Shown here: positions 9,115-14,867 of the stretch, in pieces | How positions within the stretch are numbered: position 1 is the stretch's first letter | Layout: each line of letters opens with the position of its first letter | DNA from: Kangiella sediminilitoris | GTDB lineage: Bacteria > Pseudomonadota > Gammaproteobacteria > Enterobacterales > Kangiellaceae | NCBI RefSeq assembly: GCF_001708405.1 | Contig: NZ_CP012418.1 | Coordinates: 1,054,001-1,118,000 of the forward strand | DNA: 64,000 nt | Direction: 5' to 3' | Made by a program: the position numbers and the translations under genes | The notes under the pieces: model-generated | Databases searched by the model: none | The model's input: the letters and a program-made list of their open reading frames with translations, nothing else | Told to the model about the DNA's origin: nothing

Positions 9115-10401
9115 TTAATAGTGCTTCGCTTGGCCTTGACCTGTTACCACATATTTTTCAGTAGTCAGTTGTACAAGACCCATTGGACCATAGGCGTGAA
9201 GTTTACTGGTTGAGATACCAATCTCTGCGCCTAGACCCAGCTCGCCACCGTCTGAGAAGCGTGATGAAGCGTTTACCATCACAACAGACGAATTGATGCG
9301 TTTAACGAACTCGTTACCACGGTCAATATCTTTGGTTACGATAACTTCAGTATGGCTTGAGCTGTGGTTCTGAATGTGTTCAACAGCAGCTTCATAGCTG
9401 TCTACTTGCTTCACGCTCATCGCCAGGCTTAAGTATTCATTGTGGTAATCTTCTTCGCTAGCTACTTCTGCATTGTCGAGTTTGCTGGCAGAGTCTTTAT
9501 CTGCTTTAAACTGAATGCCGAATTCGTTGCCAAGAGCGTTCACACGCTCCAGGAATTCGTCAGCAATGTCTTTGTGTATCACCAGGCTTTCTAGTGCATT
9601 ACACACGCCCGGACGCGATACTTTACCGTCTTTCAGTAGCTTCTCTGCTTTATCCAAGTCAGCATACTTATCAACGTATAAGTGACATACGCCTTTAAAG
9701 TGCTGAATTACTGGAATTTTACTGTTATCCGTTACCGCTTGAATCAAGCGCTCGCCACCACGTGGGATGACAAGATCAATGGTGTCACGGAACTGAAGCA
9801 GATGGTTCACAGCTGAGTGGCTTTGTGAAGGCACGATGCAGACCATTTCTTTACTGAAGCCACAAGCTTCAATCGCTTGGTGCCAGCAGTCGATAATGGC
9901 GTTGTTTGAGTGCCATGCTTCTTTACCACCACGCAGAATAACCACGTTACCTGATTTAAGCGTCAGTGCTGCTGCTTCTACCGCCACGTTTGGGCGTGCT
10001 TCATAAATCATCAGCACAACGCCAAGTGGAATACGCATTTTAGCGACACGGATGCCGTTAGGGCGCAAAGAGCTTGGGCCCATTTCACCAACAGGGTCAG
10101 CCAAGGCCATAACGTTTTCCAGTGCAGCGACCATACCGTCTACACGTTCTTCGTCTAATAGAAGACGGTCGACCATTGCATCTGATAAATCGTTTTCTTT
10201 CGCGTAATCAATATCTTTTTTGTTCGCTTCAAGAATCTGTGCTTGATTTGCTTTGAGCTGTTTAGCCATCGCAGCCAGCACATCATTCTTTTGGCTACTG
10301 GTTAATGTAGCAAGAGTTTTTGCCGCTTCTTTAGCACGAAGCGTTAACTCATATAGCTCTTGCTGTTCTTGGTCTTCAAATGTTTTCTCTTTCATATTCA
10401 T
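9115..10401 (-). CDS. proA: gamma-glutamyl phosphate reductase
   Basis: Aldehyde-dehydrogenase-fold enzyme, 428 aa, that reduces gamma-glutamyl phosphate with NADPH to glutamate semialdehyde, the second step of proline synthesis. The active-site cysteine lies in R-P-G-V-C-N-A-L-E, and the conserved E-A-R-P-N-V and S-S-R-F-S-D-G-G-E-L-G-L-G-A-E-I-G motifs are intact. The ATG at 10401 follows AGGAGATAGT; a second in-frame ATG is two codons on. proB1 ends 20 bp upstream, so the pair forms an operon closed by the terminator at 9035-9067. Confidence 0.97.
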   Translation of the reverse strand: MNMKEKTFEDQEQQELYELTLRAKEAAKTLATLTSSQKNDVLAAMAKQLKANQAQILEANKKDIDYAKENDLSDAMVDRLLLDEERVDGMVAALENVMALADPVGEMGPSSLRPNGIRVAKMRIPLGVVLMIYEARPNVAVEAAALTLKSGNVVILRGGKEAWHSNNAIIDCWHQAIEACGFSKEMVCIVPSQSHSAVNHLLQFRDTIDLVIPRGGERLIQAVTDNSKIPVIQHFKGVCHLYVDKYADLDKAEKLLKDGKVSRPGVCNALESLVIHKDIADEFLERVNALGNEFGIQFKADKDSASKLDNAEVASEEDYHNEYLSLAMSVKQVDSYEAAVEHIQNHSSSHTEVIVTKDIDRGNEFVKRINSSVVMVNASSRFSDGGELGLGAEIGISTSKLHAYGPMGLVQLTTEKYVVTGQGQAKHY

Positions 10402-10421: not shown

Positions 10422-11231
10422 CTAAGCAACGTTTGCTTCTTCATCTTGAGCTGTGTTGCGAACTAAAGTACCTGGGTTCTGGTTATTGAATAGACGCATG
10501 TAACTTTCGTTTGTACCGTTACAGATAATCGTATCAATACCATTTTCCGAGGCAAATTTCGCAGCTTTCAGCTTGGTACGCATACCACCAGTACCTTGTG
10601 CACTTGTGCTTTGCTTACCCATTGCTAAGGCTTCTTCGCTAATGCCTTCAAATTGATTCACTAACTCAGCGTCAGGGTTGGTTTTCGGGTTGTCGTCGTA
10701 GACACCGTCAATATCACTACAGATGATCAATAGATCAGCGTTAGTTAATTTTGCAACCTGTGCAACGAGGTTATCGTTGTCACCAACCGTTAACTCTTCA
10801 GTCGCTACCGTATCGTTCTCATTAACAATCGGCAGTGCGCCAAGTTCTTCTAGTGTTTTGAATGTGTTGCGTGCGTTCTGTGCGCGCTCAGGATTTTTAA
10901 TATCGGCTGAAGTCAGTAATACCTGGGCCACAACATCATCAAAGAAACGCTGCCAGTGTGCAACGACCATTGATTGGCCGACAGCGGCTAGCGGCTGCTT
11001 TTCTTTACGAGTTAATTTATCGTAGTCTGGTTTAAGCAAGTTGAAACCTGCTGCTACCGCACCAGAAGAAACTAATGTAACTTGTTTCCCTGCTTTACGA
11101 CATTTTCTGACAAAGTGGGCGATAGGCAAGCAATACTCCGCAGAGCATGAATGACCATCAGGCGCGATAAGCGCTGATCCAACTTTAACGACGATGTTGT
11201 TGTAATTACCAAATTCAATATGTTCGAGCAT
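10422..11231 (-). CDS. proB: glutamate 5-kinase, short form (copy 1)
   Basis: Amino-acid-kinase family, 269 aa, phosphorylating glutamate in the first step of proline synthesis. Seen: V-V-K-V-G-S-A-L-I, V-S-S-G-A-V-A-A-G, V-N-E-N-D-T-V-A and D-N-D-N-L-V-A. The protein ends about 100 residues before the 367-aa E. coli enzyme, so it lacks the C-terminal PUA domain. Twenty bp separate it from proA. A second, clearly related kinase gene lies upstream on the same strand. Its long leader contains a reading frame related to that of copy 2. A perfect TTGACA promoter lies about 180 bp upstream. Confidence 0.95.
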   Translation of the reverse strand: MLEHIEFGNYNNIVVKVGSALIAPDGHSCSAEYCLPIAHFVRKCRKAGKQVTLVSSGAVAAGFNLLKPDYDKLTRKEKQPLAAVGQSMVVAHWQRFFDDVVAQVLLTSADIKNPERAQNARNTFKTLEELGALPIVNENDTVATEELTVGDNDNLVAQVAKLTNADLLIICSDIDGVYDDNPKTNPDAELVNQFEGISEEALAMGKQSTSAQGTGGMRTKLKAAKFASENGIDTIICNGTNESYMRLFNNQNPGTLVRNTAQDEEANVA

Positions 11232-11260
11232 GAAATGACCTTTCTCTTTTAAAGGATTAG

Positions 11261-11419
11261 TTAATGACGAGTTAAAAGTAGACGTGGTGTGCTAGAACAC
11301 GTTACCCAAGCGCCAGGCTTGTTTTCTAATCGCAGACATAAACGACTTGGCTGGCCTGATTCGCCTGCCGTGGATAGTGTCGATTTGTCTAGTCGATTAA
11401 TGTTAAGCACGGTTTGCAT
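11261..11419 (-). other. possible leader reading frame of proB1
   Basis: A 52-codon frame from an ATG at 11419 to a TAA 29 bp before proB1. It shares S-T-A and G-Q-P-x-x-x-C-L, in the same phase, with the leader frame of proB2 (12530-12631). The predicted promoter would start transcription near 11411, inside codons 3-4, so the ATG is probably not used; the GTG at 11408-11410 could act as a leaderless start. Three prolines only. Translation is unproven. A 7-bp inverted repeat, CTTTTAA with TTAAAAG (11246-11278), sits next to the proB1 ribosome-binding site. Confidence 0.4.
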
Positions 11420-11445
11420 TATTAATATACAGATCTATATGTCAA
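11418..11445 (-). promoter_or_regulatory. proB1-proA promoter
   Basis: On the minus strand TTGACA (11440-11445) is a perfect -35; 16 bp later AATAAT (11418-11423) matches the -10 at five of six bases. It predicts a 5' leader of about 180 nt. The rest of the 405-bp gap between proB2 and proB1 (11446-11636) shows no gene and no convincing terminator for proB2. Confidence 0.7.
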
Positions 11446-11636
11446 ATTTGACTCGGAAAAAATCTGAGAGACGCTCTGAGCGGCTGTTAGCGCCTTTAAC
11501 CCTATGCAACTGGGGGGTATGTTGGTTATACCGAATGCACTTCAACTTTAGATCTCGTCCGATCTCAGCGAAATCCGCATATATCAAAAATAATTCGAAA
11601 TAACAGTAACTTATGGCTGGAATTAGAAAAACTAAT

Positions 11637-12443
11637 CTATCGTGTTGTAACACTATCAAATTGGTTATTAATACCAATCCAGGTTCCTGCATTATTATTG
11701 GACAATAAACGGCAATAAGCTTCCTTACGACCATTACAGATAATGGTATCTATGCCATGATTATCGGCAATTAAGGCTGCTTCGAGTTTAGTCTGCATTC
11801 CGCCGCGTGCCTGCGGGTTATGACTACATTTTCCCATCTGCATTATATCCGGTGTAATATTTTCCACTCGATGCAATAATTTCGCTTCGGGGGCAAGGTG
11901 TGGGTTTTCAGTAAATAATCCATCAACATCACTGCAAATAATTAATAAATCTGCTCCAGTCAATGCTGCCACTTTTGCTGCGAGATTATCATTGTCACCT
12001 ATCATAAGTTCCTCAATAGCTACAGTATCATTTTCGTTAACAATAGGGATGACCCGGTGTTGGTGAAGTGTGGAAATCGTTTTCTTTGCGTTAACGGATC
12101 GAGTAGGGTTTTGAATATCAGCGGCAGTCAGTAATACCTGTGCGACAGGCTGATCAAAAAATTGTTGCCAGTGGTTTATGACTTTTGACTGACCAATTGC
12201 GGCAAGTGCCTGTCTTTCGACCGTTGATAAGTCTTCCTCTGAAGGACGTAAAGTATTATAACCCGCTGCCACTGCCCCCGAGCTTACCAGGGTTATGGTT
12301 TTCCCAAGCTCCTGGCATTTTTTGATGAAGTTTGCGATCGGTAGGCAATACCGCGCCGAACATGAATGACCATCAGGTGCAATTAGGGCTGATCCTACTT
12401 TTACAACAATGTTCTTGTACTTTGTGAAATCAAATTCGTTCAT
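11637..12443 (-). CDS. glutamate 5-kinase paralogue, short form (copy 2)
   Basis: 268 aa, without the PUA domain, related over its whole length to copy 1 (shared V-V-K-V-G-S-A-L-I-A-P-D-G-H-S-C-S-A, V-S-S-G-A-V-A-A-G, I-V-N-E-N-D-T-V-A, V-L-L-T-x-A-D-I). The open frame extends upstream to 12566, but the ATG at 12443 follows ACTAGGAACAGAG and aligns with the copy 1 start. Catalytic motifs look intact, so it should be active; a difference in proline feedback or in regulation is the likely reason for two copies. It is separated from copy 1 by 405 bp and has its own leader with an intrinsic terminator (12459-12492). Confidence 0.9.
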   Translation of the reverse strand: MNEFDFTKYKNIVVKVGSALIAPDGHSCSARYCLPIANFIKKCQELGKTITLVSSGAVAAGYNTLRPSEEDLSTVERQALAAIGQSKVINHWQQFFDQPVAQVLLTAADIQNPTRSVNAKKTISTLHQHRVIPIVNENDTVAIEELMIGDNDNLAAKVAALTGADLLIICSDVDGLFTENPHLAPEAKLLHRVENITPDIMQMGKCSHNPQARGGMQTKLEAALIADNHGIDTIICNGRKEAYCRLLSNNNAGTWIGINNQFDSVTTR

Positions 12444-12458
12444 CTCTGTTCCTAGTAT

Positions 12459-12492
12459 AAAAAAACCCGCGAAGCAGGGCTTGCGGGCTTTT
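12459..12492 (-). terminator. intrinsic terminator inside the proB2 leader (probable attenuator)
   Basis: Minus-strand hairpin CCCGC-AAG / CTT-C-GCGGG with loop CCCTG and one bulged C, flanked by A and T tracts, then seven T. It ends 15 nt before the proB2 ATG, too close for a promoter to fit between. The upstream peptidase gene has its own terminator at 12722-12746, so this one must act on proB2 transcription. Confidence 0.8.
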
Positions 12493-12529
12493 GGTTTTCT
12501 ATTTTCGTGGTTTAAATTAATCTCACCAT

Positions 12530-12631
12530 TTATAAATAAGCACGTACCTGCATTTGTTCGAGACAATAGGGTATGGGCTGTCCGGGAAGGACAGTGATTG
12601 GATTAGACGCTGTGCTTATTAATTCACTCAT
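12530..12631 (-). other. proline-rich leader reading frame of proB2
   Basis: A 33-codon frame, ATG (12629-12631) to TAA (12530-12532), reading M-S-E-L-I-S-T-A-S-N-P then I-T-V-L-P-G-Q-P-I-P-Y-C-L. Proline codons are 11 (CCA), 16, 19 and 21 (CCC). A GGA lies 10 nt before the ATG, a usable but not strong ribosome site. Within the frame CTGTCC/GGACAG forms a hairpin, and bases 12612-12620 are exactly complementary to 12535-12543 (9 bp), so the RNA can fold in more than one way depending on where a ribosome stands. Terminator and proB2 follow. Inferred function: attenuation by proline supply. Confidence 0.5.
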
Positions 12632-12721
12632 GTCTTAAATATCCTACAGTTTTGAATAGTTCGCAATTAAAATTTTAAACATTCCATTTTCCATCGATGC
12701 GTTAGTTCCTTGTAGTGGAAA

Positions 12722-12746
12722 ACAAAAAGGCGCCATTTGGCGCCTT
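12722..12746 (-). terminator. terminator of the prolyl oligopeptidase gene
   Basis: An 8-bp perfect stem AAGGCGCC (12727-12734) with GGCGCCTT (12739-12746), loop ATTT, followed on the minus strand by T5. Between it and the proB2 leader frame (12632-12721) a weak promoter TTGCGA-17-GATATT can be drawn, with low confidence. Confidence 0.85.
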
Positions 12747-12764
12747 ATGTTAGATGAGGGGAAT

Positions 12765-14867
12765 TTAATCCATAAGCTGGTCAGCGAGATAAGTATAAAC
12801 CAATGCATTTAACTTGGCTGATTGCTCGTTATTGGCTGCGCCACCATGACCCCCCTCTGTGTTTTCATAATATAGTAGGTCATGACCCTGGTCGGTCATT
12901 TTGGCGACCATTTTTCGAGCATGTCCCGGGTGAACCCGATCATCACGTGTGGATGTAGTAAAGAATATTTTTGGATATTCCGTATCCTCATCTACATTAT
13001 GATAAGGAGAGTAGGTTTTAATGTAGTTCCACTCGTCTTCATTATCTGGGTTGCCGTATTCACCCATCCAGCTCGCTCCGGCAAGTAGCTTATTAAAACG
13101 CTTCATATCCAATAAAGGAACCTGACACACAACGGCTTCATAGAGGTCAGGACGCATCGTTGCTACAGTTCCAACTAAAAGACCGCCATTACTGCCACCT
13201 CTGATGCCCAGTTTATTTTTTGAAGTTACTTTACGTTCTATAAGATCTTCCGCGACACGAATAAAATCAGAAAAGGCAATGTGTCTATTCTCTTTGAGTG
13301 CCGCTTGATGCCATGCAGGGCCGTATTCACCACCACCACGTATGTTAGCCAGGGCGTAAACGCCGCCTTGCTCCAGCCAATCGATGCCAACTGTCGCTGA
13401 ATAACTAGGACGTAACGATACTTCAAATCCACCATATCCAAACAGCAAAGTAGGATTTTTACCATCAAGTACCGTATCTTTTGCCATGATCAGGAAGTAA
13501 GGTATCTTGGTACCGTCTTTTGCTTCGGCAAAATGCTGCTCTACCTTGTAGGGTGACGCATCGAAGAACTCAGGCAGACTTTTCAGTACTGCTGTAGATT
13601 CTTTCTCAGCATCAAAGTAGTAAAGACTACTTGGAGTAAGGAAGTTCTGGTAATTAATGAAAAAATTATTATGCTCATCGCTAGTTCCAGTGACAGACAA
13701 TGTGCCCAGTTCAGGCATATCTATCTGCTCATGGGACCATTCGCCATCATTATAGGTATAACGATAAAGCTCACTACTTACGTCTTTTAATGTTGTAACC
13801 AGTACATGGTCTTTAGTCATGCTAACACTTGCAATAGACGTACGAGAATCAGGCACCAGGACTTCGGTAAATGTCTTTTTACCTGCCATAAAGTCATCTA
13901 TGGAAATAGAAAGAAGAGAGGCTTGCTTGTAGGTTTTGTCACCGATAGTCCAGTCTGATTTGAGCTCCAGCAATAATTGCCCGTTGATAATTCCACTAAA
14001 GTCACTGTCCTTAGGGCGGTCCATCTTTACAAGTCCGTGGTCTGTCGACATATATATATCGGAGCTATAGAAGTCGATGCCTTGATATATAATTTGATAT
14101 TTTTCGTCGCCGTCGTGAATGACCATTCCAGCGTTCCATACGTTGTCTTTTTCACCTTCGAATACTGTCTTGGCTTTTTCTAGAGGCTGGCCTCGCTCCC
14201 ATACTTTGACTACTCGTGGATAGCCTGAGTCAGTCATACTGCCTTTACCAAAATCTGTTCCGACATAAAGTGTATCTTTATCGATCCAGCTTAAGCTGCT
14301 TTTTGCTTCTGGTAGCTGAAACCCGTCTTCAACAAATGACTTTTTATTCATGTCAAATTCACGAACAACCGTTGCATCAGCTCCGCCGCGTGACAGGTTG
14401 ATTAAACAGCGATCATAATCTGGGTAGAGGCAGTTAGTGCCTTTATATACCCAGTTTTCATCTTCTTTTTCTGCCAGTTCATCTAGATTAAGTACGATCT
14501 CCCACTCAGGATTCTCTTTCTTATATTCTTCAAGAGTGGTTCTACGCCATAGGCCGCGAGGGTTTTCATCATCACGCCAGAAATTATAAAAGAAGTCACC
14601 CATCTGGCTGACATACGGAATACGTTCATCGGAGTTATAGACTTCAAGATTTTTAGCATATAGCTCTTTATAAAGAGGCTTTGACTGGAGGTACCCTAAT
14701 GACTTCTCATTATTTTTTTCAACCCATTCAAGTGCTTTTTTACCCTCAACCTCTTCAAGCCAGATATAAGGATCATTACTTTTAGGTTCTTCAGACATAG
14801 TTTTCGCCATCACTCCCATGGATGTCATCGAGGCTAGCGCTAACCCAGTGATCAGTTTCTTATTCAT
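12765..14867 (-). CDS. prolyl oligopeptidase (S9A family), secreted
   Basis: 700 aa. A signal peptide of about 21 residues ends in M-A-K. The N-terminal beta-propeller (about 80-430) covers a C-terminal alpha/beta-hydrolase domain with S559 in G-G-S-N-G-G, the aspartate pair D642-D643 in T-R-D-D-R-V-H-P and H674 in G-G-H-G-G, the full catalytic triad. Such enzymes cut short proline-containing peptides after proline; here it probably acts in the periplasm. It lies between the proline biosynthesis genes and the 2-oxoacid dehydrogenase operon on the same strand, but each has its own terminator. Confidence 0.92.
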   Translation of the reverse strand: MNKKLITGLALASMTSMGVMAKTMSEEPKSNDPYIWLEEVEGKKALEWVEKNNEKSLGYLQSKPLYKELYAKNLEVYNSDERIPYVSQMGDFFYNFWRDDENPRGLWRRTTLEEYKKENPEWEIVLNLDELAEKEDENWVYKGTNCLYPDYDRCLINLSRGGADATVVREFDMNKKSFVEDGFQLPEAKSSLSWIDKDTLYVGTDFGKGSMTDSGYPRVVKVWERGQPLEKAKTVFEGEKDNVWNAGMVIHDGDEKYQIIYQGIDFYSSDIYMSTDHGLVKMDRPKDSDFSGIINGQLLLELKSDWTIGDKTYKQASLLSISIDDFMAGKKTFTEVLVPDSRTSIASVSMTKDHVLVTTLKDVSSELYRYTYNDGEWSHEQIDMPELGTLSVTGTSDEHNNFFINYQNFLTPSSLYYFDAEKESTAVLKSLPEFFDASPYKVEQHFAEAKDGTKIPYFLIMAKDTVLDGKNPTLLFGYGGFEVSLRPSYSATVGIDWLEQGGVYALANIRGGGEYGPAWHQAALKENRHIAFSDFIRVAEDLIERKVTSKNKLGIRGGSNGGLLVGTVATMRPDLYEAVVCQVPLLDMKRFNKLLAGASWMGEYGNPDNEDEWNYIKTYSPYHNVDEDTEYPKIFFTTSTRDDRVHPGHARKMVAKMTDQGHDLLYYENTEGGHGGAANNEQSAKLNALVYTYLADQLMD

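Follow-up and report, generated by a model that had tools for sequence, protein, structure and literature searches.

A candidate proline-codon attenuator in front of proB2, the first of two tandem glutamate 5-kinase genes in Kangiella

Why should a gene for proline synthesis stand directly behind a strong intrinsic terminator, and why should a short reading frame with proline codons lie just before that terminator? The question is raised by a locus of Kangiella sediminilitoris contained in a window of 64,000 nucleotides, the whole stretch of DNA analysed here, from a source genome of 2.50 Mb in a single contig. On the minus strand, the order of elements is a peptidase-like gene with its own terminator, the leader frame, the second terminator, proB2, proB1 and proA (table 1). 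The gene upstream of the leader (12765-14867, minus strand) looks, by our assumption, like an S9-type peptidase, and the gene 3' of proB1 (9115-10401, minus strand) is one we take to be proA. ProB1 and ProB2 are 268-269 amino acids long, both shorter than the 367-aa chain 2j5t, and the 268-aa ProB2 is too short for the C-terminal PUA domain of E. coli ProB. We propose that the arrangement is very likely a ribosome-mediated transcription attenuator, which would sense charged tRNA-Pro through the rare codon CCC and control proB2.

The original prediction had read the locus in the same general way, and its anatomical claims withstood re-examination. Specifically, the 33-codon minus-strand frame with prolines at codons 11, 16, 19 and 21, three of them CCC, proved correct in coordinates and codons; a terminator scan recovered the terminators of both the leader and the preceding gene, including the gap of 15 nt before the proB2 ATG; and the 9-bp pairing of arm 1 with arm 2, as well as a CTGTCC/GGACAG hairpin, appeared in the computed fold.

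Table 1. Positions of the features discussed, in window coordinates.
Feature	Positions	Strand	Details or basis
Terminator stem of the preceding gene (12765-14867)	12727..12746	-	terminator scan
Predicted leader promoter	12638..12666	-	TTGCGA (12661-12666), 17-nt spacer, GATATT (12638-12643), 6 nt to leader ATG
Leader frame, 33 codons, MSELISTASNPITVLPGQPIPYCLEQMQVRAYL	12530..12631	-	Pro at 11 (CCA), 16, 19 and 21 (CCC each)
Arm 1 (AATAAGCAC)	12612..12620	-	9 bp with 12535-12543 in fold
Sensor codons CCC-GGA-CAG-CCC-ATA-CCC-TAT (Pro16, Pro19, Pro21)	12566..12586	-	comparison of seven clade-A leaders
Arm 2 (GCAGGTACGTGCTTATT)	12535..12551	-	12535-12543 pairs with arm 1, 12538-12551 with arm 3
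Arm 3 (AAGCCCGCAAGCCCTGC), terminator 5' half and loop	12474..12490	-	scan, duplex search, fold
Intrinsic terminator (putative attenuator), ends 15 nt before proB2 ATG (12443)	12459..12492	-	scan; -14.6 kcal/mol for the piece folded there
proB2, glutamate 5-kinase, 268 aa	11637..12443	-	best solved relatives 2w21 (E 4.9e-44) and 2j5t (367 aa, E 1.4e-43)
proB1 promoter-like site, TTGACA-N16-AATAAT	11418-11445	-	promoter scan
proB1 5' RNA, about 125 nt, conserved, structured	11287-11410	-	begins at predicted proB1 transcript start
proB1, second glutamate 5-kinase, next gene after proB2	10422..11231	-	best solved relative a glutamate 5-kinase, E 1.5e-47

The comparison covers 20 Kangiella genomes, among them K. 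taiwanensis KT1 (G001), K. aquimarina (G006), K. spongicola (G009) and K. shandongensis (G018). A proB2-type gene is found in 13 of the 20, with proB1 behind it in 12 of these; the proB1 downstream of proB2 in G003 is cut by the contig end. In G004, proB is directly followed by proA, and the same attenuator precedes this plain proB-proA pair. K. shandongensis has proB1 and no proB2. In six further genomes (G008, G010, G012, G015, G016 and G017) proB matches were absent or short and weak, which suggests a loss of the proB route to proline. Compared with the window copies, ProB2 is 56-67% identical in the 12 other loci, and ProB1 is 94-97% identical in six other tandem clade-A genomes, 89% in K. 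shandongensis and 79-80% in four clade-B genomes. That is, the tandem kinases differ strongly in evolutionary rate, ProB1 reaching 97% identity and ProB2 at most 67%. Used alone as a query in a first scan of genome contigs, ProB2 gave no match, and an alignment of ProB1 gave none against viral contigs.

An open leader frame of 28-46 codons, with three to five proline codons, precedes the gene in all 13 proB2-type loci. Under the codon usage of the window (taken from 44 mechanically chosen long ORFs), at least four prolines in 33 codons would arise by chance with P = 0.03, and at least three CCC codons with P = 0.0005. CCC is the rarest proline codon in the window's genes, and it accounts for 40 of the 52 prolines of the 13 leaders versus 81 of 634 in the 44 long ORFs. 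The source genome carries genes for both tRNA-Pro(GGG) and tRNA-Pro(UGG), as seen in the 20 tRNA loci scanned (37 matches, 30 loci fetched). By their peptides the leaders fall into three kinds. The seven of clade A, which include the window, all share the core LPG[QL]P[IM]P[YF], followed downstream by GLR except in the window; the five of clade B have PxxLP[AV]PG (LPVPGKSRLALC), and G004 has KPGYPAAP (KPGYPAAPYSLL). The three kinds are otherwise unlike one another, and the constant part is a set of spaced proline codons followed by arm 2.

Could the peptide itself stall the ribosome, either as an arrest peptide or through the kind of polyproline/EF-P stall discussed for mgtA/mgtB, so that the signal would be something other than charged tRNA-Pro? 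The retention of the core in seven of seven clade-A leaders agrees with such a role. However, an arrest peptide would have to survive the differences between clades, across which mainly the prolines persist, and none of the 13 leaders contains a Pro-Pro pair. The codons speak in the same direction: in the eight-codon core of clade A, the third base varies in all five non-proline codons and in none of the three proline codons, which are CCC in all seven leaders, a fixation unnecessary for a peptide sensor, though one that RNA pairing could explain as well. We therefore consider a stalling peptide unlikely, and return to a sensor of charged tRNA-Pro.

At the level of sequence comparison, we would call the presence of the system in 13 of 13 Kangiella proB2-type loci the decisive evidence. 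Had the terminator been kept and the frame or its prolines lost, the attenuator reading would have suffered; frame, clustered prolines and terminator occur together at every one of these loci. In K. shandongensis, a degenerate remnant (…LLPVQPIP…) stands where leader and proB2 would be, directly before an intact proB1 region, and, read by eye, this remnant has neither an in-frame start codon nor a terminator of the usual kind. Outside Kangiella, in family, order and class, a proline-rich frame with a terminator was found at none of 44 proB loci (16 + 28, the best-matching loci of each search, with start codons placed mechanically), and the same screen detected all three of the 13 leaders that were given to it as positive controls. 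A system common to the wider family or class was rejected on this count. When 40 family genomes were searched for the pattern of the proline core, 52 matches were returned versus 43 for the reversed control; eight of the 52 are the seven clade-A leaders and the decayed leader of K. shandongensis.

All 13 loci also have a terminator, about 15-67 nt before the proB start. Its 5' arm reads CGCAAGCC in 11 of them, CUCAAGCC in K. aquimarina and CGCAAAAC in G004. An antiterminator, which the original prediction could not find by eye, does exist: when the post-proline spacer is matched with the terminator 5' arm, the best duplex falls at the homologous place in 13 of 13 loci. In clade A apart from the window, the leader codons GGUUUGCG pair with the terminator 5' arm CGCAAGCC; in clade B, GGCUUGCG pairs with the terminator 5' arm, with one base pair lost in G003 and a break in K. 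aquimarina; and in G004, GUUGUGCGGG pairs with CCCGCAAAAC with one mismatch, a U-A replacing the G-C of the other loci. Window arm 2 occupies the position of GGUUUGCG in clade A and GGCUUGCG in clade B, and here the GCAGG/CCTGC pairing that had already been noticed is the central part of a weaker antiterminator, to which CG/CG and GCTT/AAGC also contribute. Compared with 1000 shuffled spacers, the best duplex reaches p < 0.05 in 11 of 13 loci (exceptions are K. aquimarina at 0.064 and the window at 0.074), but the loci are related, so these p-values are not independent and a pooled p-value should not be taken at face value.

Folding energies give a similar picture. In 12 of 13 loci, the window excepted, the piece from arm 2 to arm 3 (64-104 nt) is computed to fold at lower energy than the terminator piece (31 nt); in eight of 13 it also folds better than shuffles (p < 0.05). 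The window's antiterminator, at -10.9 kcal/mol (z -0.24) versus -14.6 for its terminator, is the weakest of the 13 by hairpin energy, and the complete 281-nt window leader folds no better than shuffles (z -0.63). Pairing of arm 1 with arm 2 near the frame start appears in the RNAalifold consensus of both clades (12 leaders), with arm 1 at about the same place in each; no assignment of arm 1 was found in G004. The arm sequences themselves differ among clade A, clade B and the window (AATAAGCAC/GTGCTTATT). The alignment of relatives that had been proposed as a check thus confirms the conservation of prolines and terminator (13 of 13), whereas within-clade covariation of the stems is slight, with changes on both sides in 2 of 29 and 1 of 38 pairs.

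The placement of these arms relative to the proline codons is what an attenuator would need. From the first base of the last sensor proline codon (the last proline within codons 1-22) to the start of arm 2, which was placed by hand from duplex and fold results, it is 11-23 nt at each of the 13 loci; a ribosome held at that codon would have its front edge at about this point. Every leader of the set shows the same order of sensor prolines, arm 2, stop codon and arm 3, with the stop codon 11-50 nt past the 8-nt arm 2 and 25-45 nt before arm 3. Together with the 13/13 anatomy and the decay in K. shandongensis, this placement supports the interpretation of the locus as an attenuator. Three leaders carry a later proline, at or beyond arm 2: codon 33 in K. 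taiwanensis KT1 and G005, and codon 25 in G003. A stall at these positions would work against the switch; in the folds computed for K. taiwanensis KT1 and G003, it breaks the antiterminator.

Where transcription of the leader might begin is suggested by the promoter position. The best -35/-10 pair has a spacer of 17 nt in 12 of 13 loci (18 in G004), and its -10 box lies 6-7 nt from the ATG in all 13, a shared position which suggests a transcript start at or next to the leader ATG. The match to the promoter is 8/12 in the window, where a fraction of 0.33 of shuffles do as well; for the remaining clade-A leaders the fraction is 0.07-0.29, and for clade B and G004 it is 0.004-0.044. A general promoter scan with a threshold of 9/12 listed no promoter at the leader. 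The leader transcript may thus be leaderless or nearly so, with a start predicted at or next to the A of the ATG. The best Shine-Dalgarno-like match is 4/6 in six leaders, 3/6 in two and 2/6 in five, and since the six 4-of-6 matches are all in clade A, a short 5' end is possible there. Five clade-B leaders (L036, L038, L039, L040 and L043) share a conserved stretch TATAACCAAAAG[TA]T[AC]ATTGAC that lies immediately 5' of the -35 box and reaches into it; the TATAACCAAAAG stretch could be an UP element or an activator site.

From these elements we infer the following sequence of events. The leader ATG, or a position next to it, would be the transcription start, and a ribosome would trail the polymerase through the leader frame. 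When proline is short, the CCC codons would stall the ribosome at a point where it has passed or covers arm 1 and its leading edge has not quite reached arm 2. The free arm 2 could then pair with arm 3 once the latter has been transcribed; this antiterminator would render arm 3 unavailable to arm 4, and the polymerase would continue into proB2 and perhaps beyond it. When proline is plentiful, the ribosome would instead reach the stop codon between arms 2 and 3, where it would cover or separate the two arms. Arm 2 would fold back on arm 1, arms 3 and 4 would form the terminator, and transcription would end 15 nt before proB2.

To what extent do folding models reproduce this switch? The outcome depends on how the ribosome is modelled. 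In a wall model, no pairing is allowed within a 28-nt ribosome footprint or across the ribosome. If the wall stands at the last sensor proline before arm 4 has been transcribed, the model expects 6.3-10.9 pairs between arms 2 and 3 at every one of the 13 loci; if it stands at arm 2 or the stop codon, pairing is between arms 3 and 4 and none is left between arms 2 and 3, because the wall itself excludes such pairs. When arm 4 is added and the wall is kept at the last sensor proline, the terminator is nearly complete in nine of 13 loci and three give a mixture, the antiterminator prevailing only in G019. The terminator thus wins at equilibrium in most genomes, so that antitermination would have to be kinetic, with the antiterminator forming first. 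In a footprint-only model, which allows pairing around the ribosome, six of 13 loci retain the antiterminator when the ribosome is at the stop codon, and K. aquimarina and, for the most part, G002 keep the arm 1-arm 2 pairing even with a stalled ribosome. In ribosome-free RNA before arm 4 is made, arm 1-arm 2 is clearly favoured in four of 13 (the window, G002, G014 and K. aquimarina), arm 2-arm 3 in seven, and two are mixed. Prediction of alternative folds, the second check proposed earlier, hence delivered the antiterminator, but the equilibrium fold of the complete leader is mostly the terminator and by itself lends no support to a switch.

The same equilibrium result is what one would expect of an ordinary double terminator behind a constitutive promoter, in which the frame would have no role and proB2 transcripts would come from leakage or a nearby promoter: the terminator is nearly complete in those nine loci even with a stalled ribosome, the predicted leader promoter is insignificant when the window is taken alone, and a second promoter is possible. 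Against this stand the conserved frame, the CCC bias, the alternative pairing at a homologous place and the decay of the leader where proB2 is absent, and a nearby promoter would have only the 15-67 nt between terminator and proB start to occupy. On balance we regard a simple double terminator as distinctly improbable.

Regulation by a tRNA-binding T-box or another known leader RNA has a precedent in Bacillus, where proBA and proI are under T-box control (PMC9245794). It is highly improbable here: within the window, only tRNAs reach the Rfam gathering score, and a permissive search of 11200-12800 returned no T-box match and nothing above threshold. Two known Rfam leaders among its sub-threshold matches were rejected for their scores (Leu_leader 19.5 bits vs 50 required, Trp_leader 18.8 vs 41). 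Equally remote is a functional small protein encoded by the leader frame, open as this frame is in all 13 loci, since its sequence is largely replaced between clades and, outside the proline core, all 10 clade-B comparisons show more raw nonsynonymous than synonymous codon differences. The variable columns of the clade-B frame, distributed over the three codon positions as 9, 12 and 12, likewise reveal no protein-like constraint; this fits a leader peptide, but it is no proof of translation. A ribosome-mediated attenuator thus remains the reading that we favour.

If proB2 is under such an attenuator, how is the second kinase controlled? The proB1 transcript is predicted to start with an RNA whose first bases, GUGCU, pair with AGCAC at the RNA end, and which contains a GGC.GGC/GCC.GCC hairpin. 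RNAalifold finds 19 pairs in it, seven of them with changes on both sides, and no Rfam family fits. The RNA occurs in 13 of the 20 Kangiella genomes; a search with a model of it (R1) over 99 genomes found 13 loci, all Kangiella loci that had been used to build the model, and none in the 79 others. A GTG frame inside this RNA encodes a partly conserved peptide and is shifted out of frame in the window.

A second conserved block lies between proB2 and the proB1 promoter (11447-11615, minus strand) and is also present in K. shandongensis, which is without proB2. Within it, CGCTGAG and TTTGACAT stand exactly 124 nt apart at 13 of 13 loci; CATACCCCCCAG is found in clade A, and CTCTCAGATTTTTT in most of clade A. 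The block could be a proB2 terminator, a small RNA or a proB1 operator array. In addition, a perfect palindrome, GTCAAATTTGAC (11441-11452, minus strand), overlaps the -35 box of the proB1 promoter; it is imperfect in several relatives and is a possible operator.

Taken together, it is conceivable, and we put it forward tentatively, that proline synthesis in these bacteria is split, ProB2 being placed under a leaderless, CCC-reading tRNA-Pro(GGG) attenuator and ProB1 under a new structured 5' RNA.

Ribosome-mediated amino-acid attenuators of proteobacteria include the his, leu, thr, ilv, phe and trp leaders. Like these, the Kangiella leader combines a frame containing codons for the product amino acid, arms that are predicted to pair as 2:3 and 3:4 and, less firmly, as 1:2, and a terminator before the first enzyme gene. 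The use of a rare codon as sensor, as of CCC here, also has a counterpart in leuL. Unlike the classical attenuators, the Kangiella leader targets proline and proB and is matched by no Rfam leader model at gathering score; its prolines are spaced and form no run, its stop codon lies 11-50 nt beyond the 8-nt arm 2, and it is possibly leaderless. Very probably, then, the mechanism is the classical one, and what is new is the amino acid and the target, together with the rare, spaced codons and a possible leaderless start. To our knowledge, the biosynthetic pathways recognised as being under leader-peptide attenuation do not include that of proline, although a comparative study of attenuation by Lopatovskaya et al. 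in 2010 (Mol Biol 44:128) could hold a proline case. That the original prediction knew of no described proline leader-peptide attenuator for proB agrees with the open PMC literature, where none for proB or another proline biosynthetic gene is among the matches listed; nor, among the matches listed, does any combine Kangiella with a leader peptide. Three papers that deal with leader peptides and attenuation (PMC2965389, PMC4833913 and PMC1262725) do not use the word proline in their main text.

Three described systems come closest. In Salmonella, mgtP of the mgtCBR leader and the mgtA leader contain proline-codon frames through which low charged tRNA-Pro raises transcription, as reported in PMC3641672. 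Their targets there are Mg2+ transport and virulence, and mgtP has three consecutive prolines, in contrast to proline synthesis and the absence of Pro-Pro pairs in Kangiella. In Sinorhizobium meliloti, the trpL transcript begins with the leader ATG (PMC7298713); this case concerns tryptophan, an alphaproteobacterium and a known 5' end, whereas the Kangiella start is only predicted. In Bacillus subtilis, T-boxes of proBA and proI exist beside an osmotically controlled proHJ (PMC9245794). Kangiella would resemble it in having one glutamate kinase under control of tRNA-Pro charging and a second one controlled otherwise; B. subtilis relies on direct tRNA binding, and Kangiella, as proposed here, on ribosome stalling. 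By this analogy, an osmotic role of Kangiella proB1 is a conjecture. If the attenuator is real, its 13 diverged natural versions, one of them weakened, and a decayed remnant would offer material for learning how the response of a single switch depends on spacing, rare codons and leaderless starts. Kangiella would then also use the ribosome for a task that falls to a T-box in Bacillus, and, if the split into two switches is true, the pair would form a ribosome-based counterpart of the Bacillus T-box proBA versus the osmotic proHJ.
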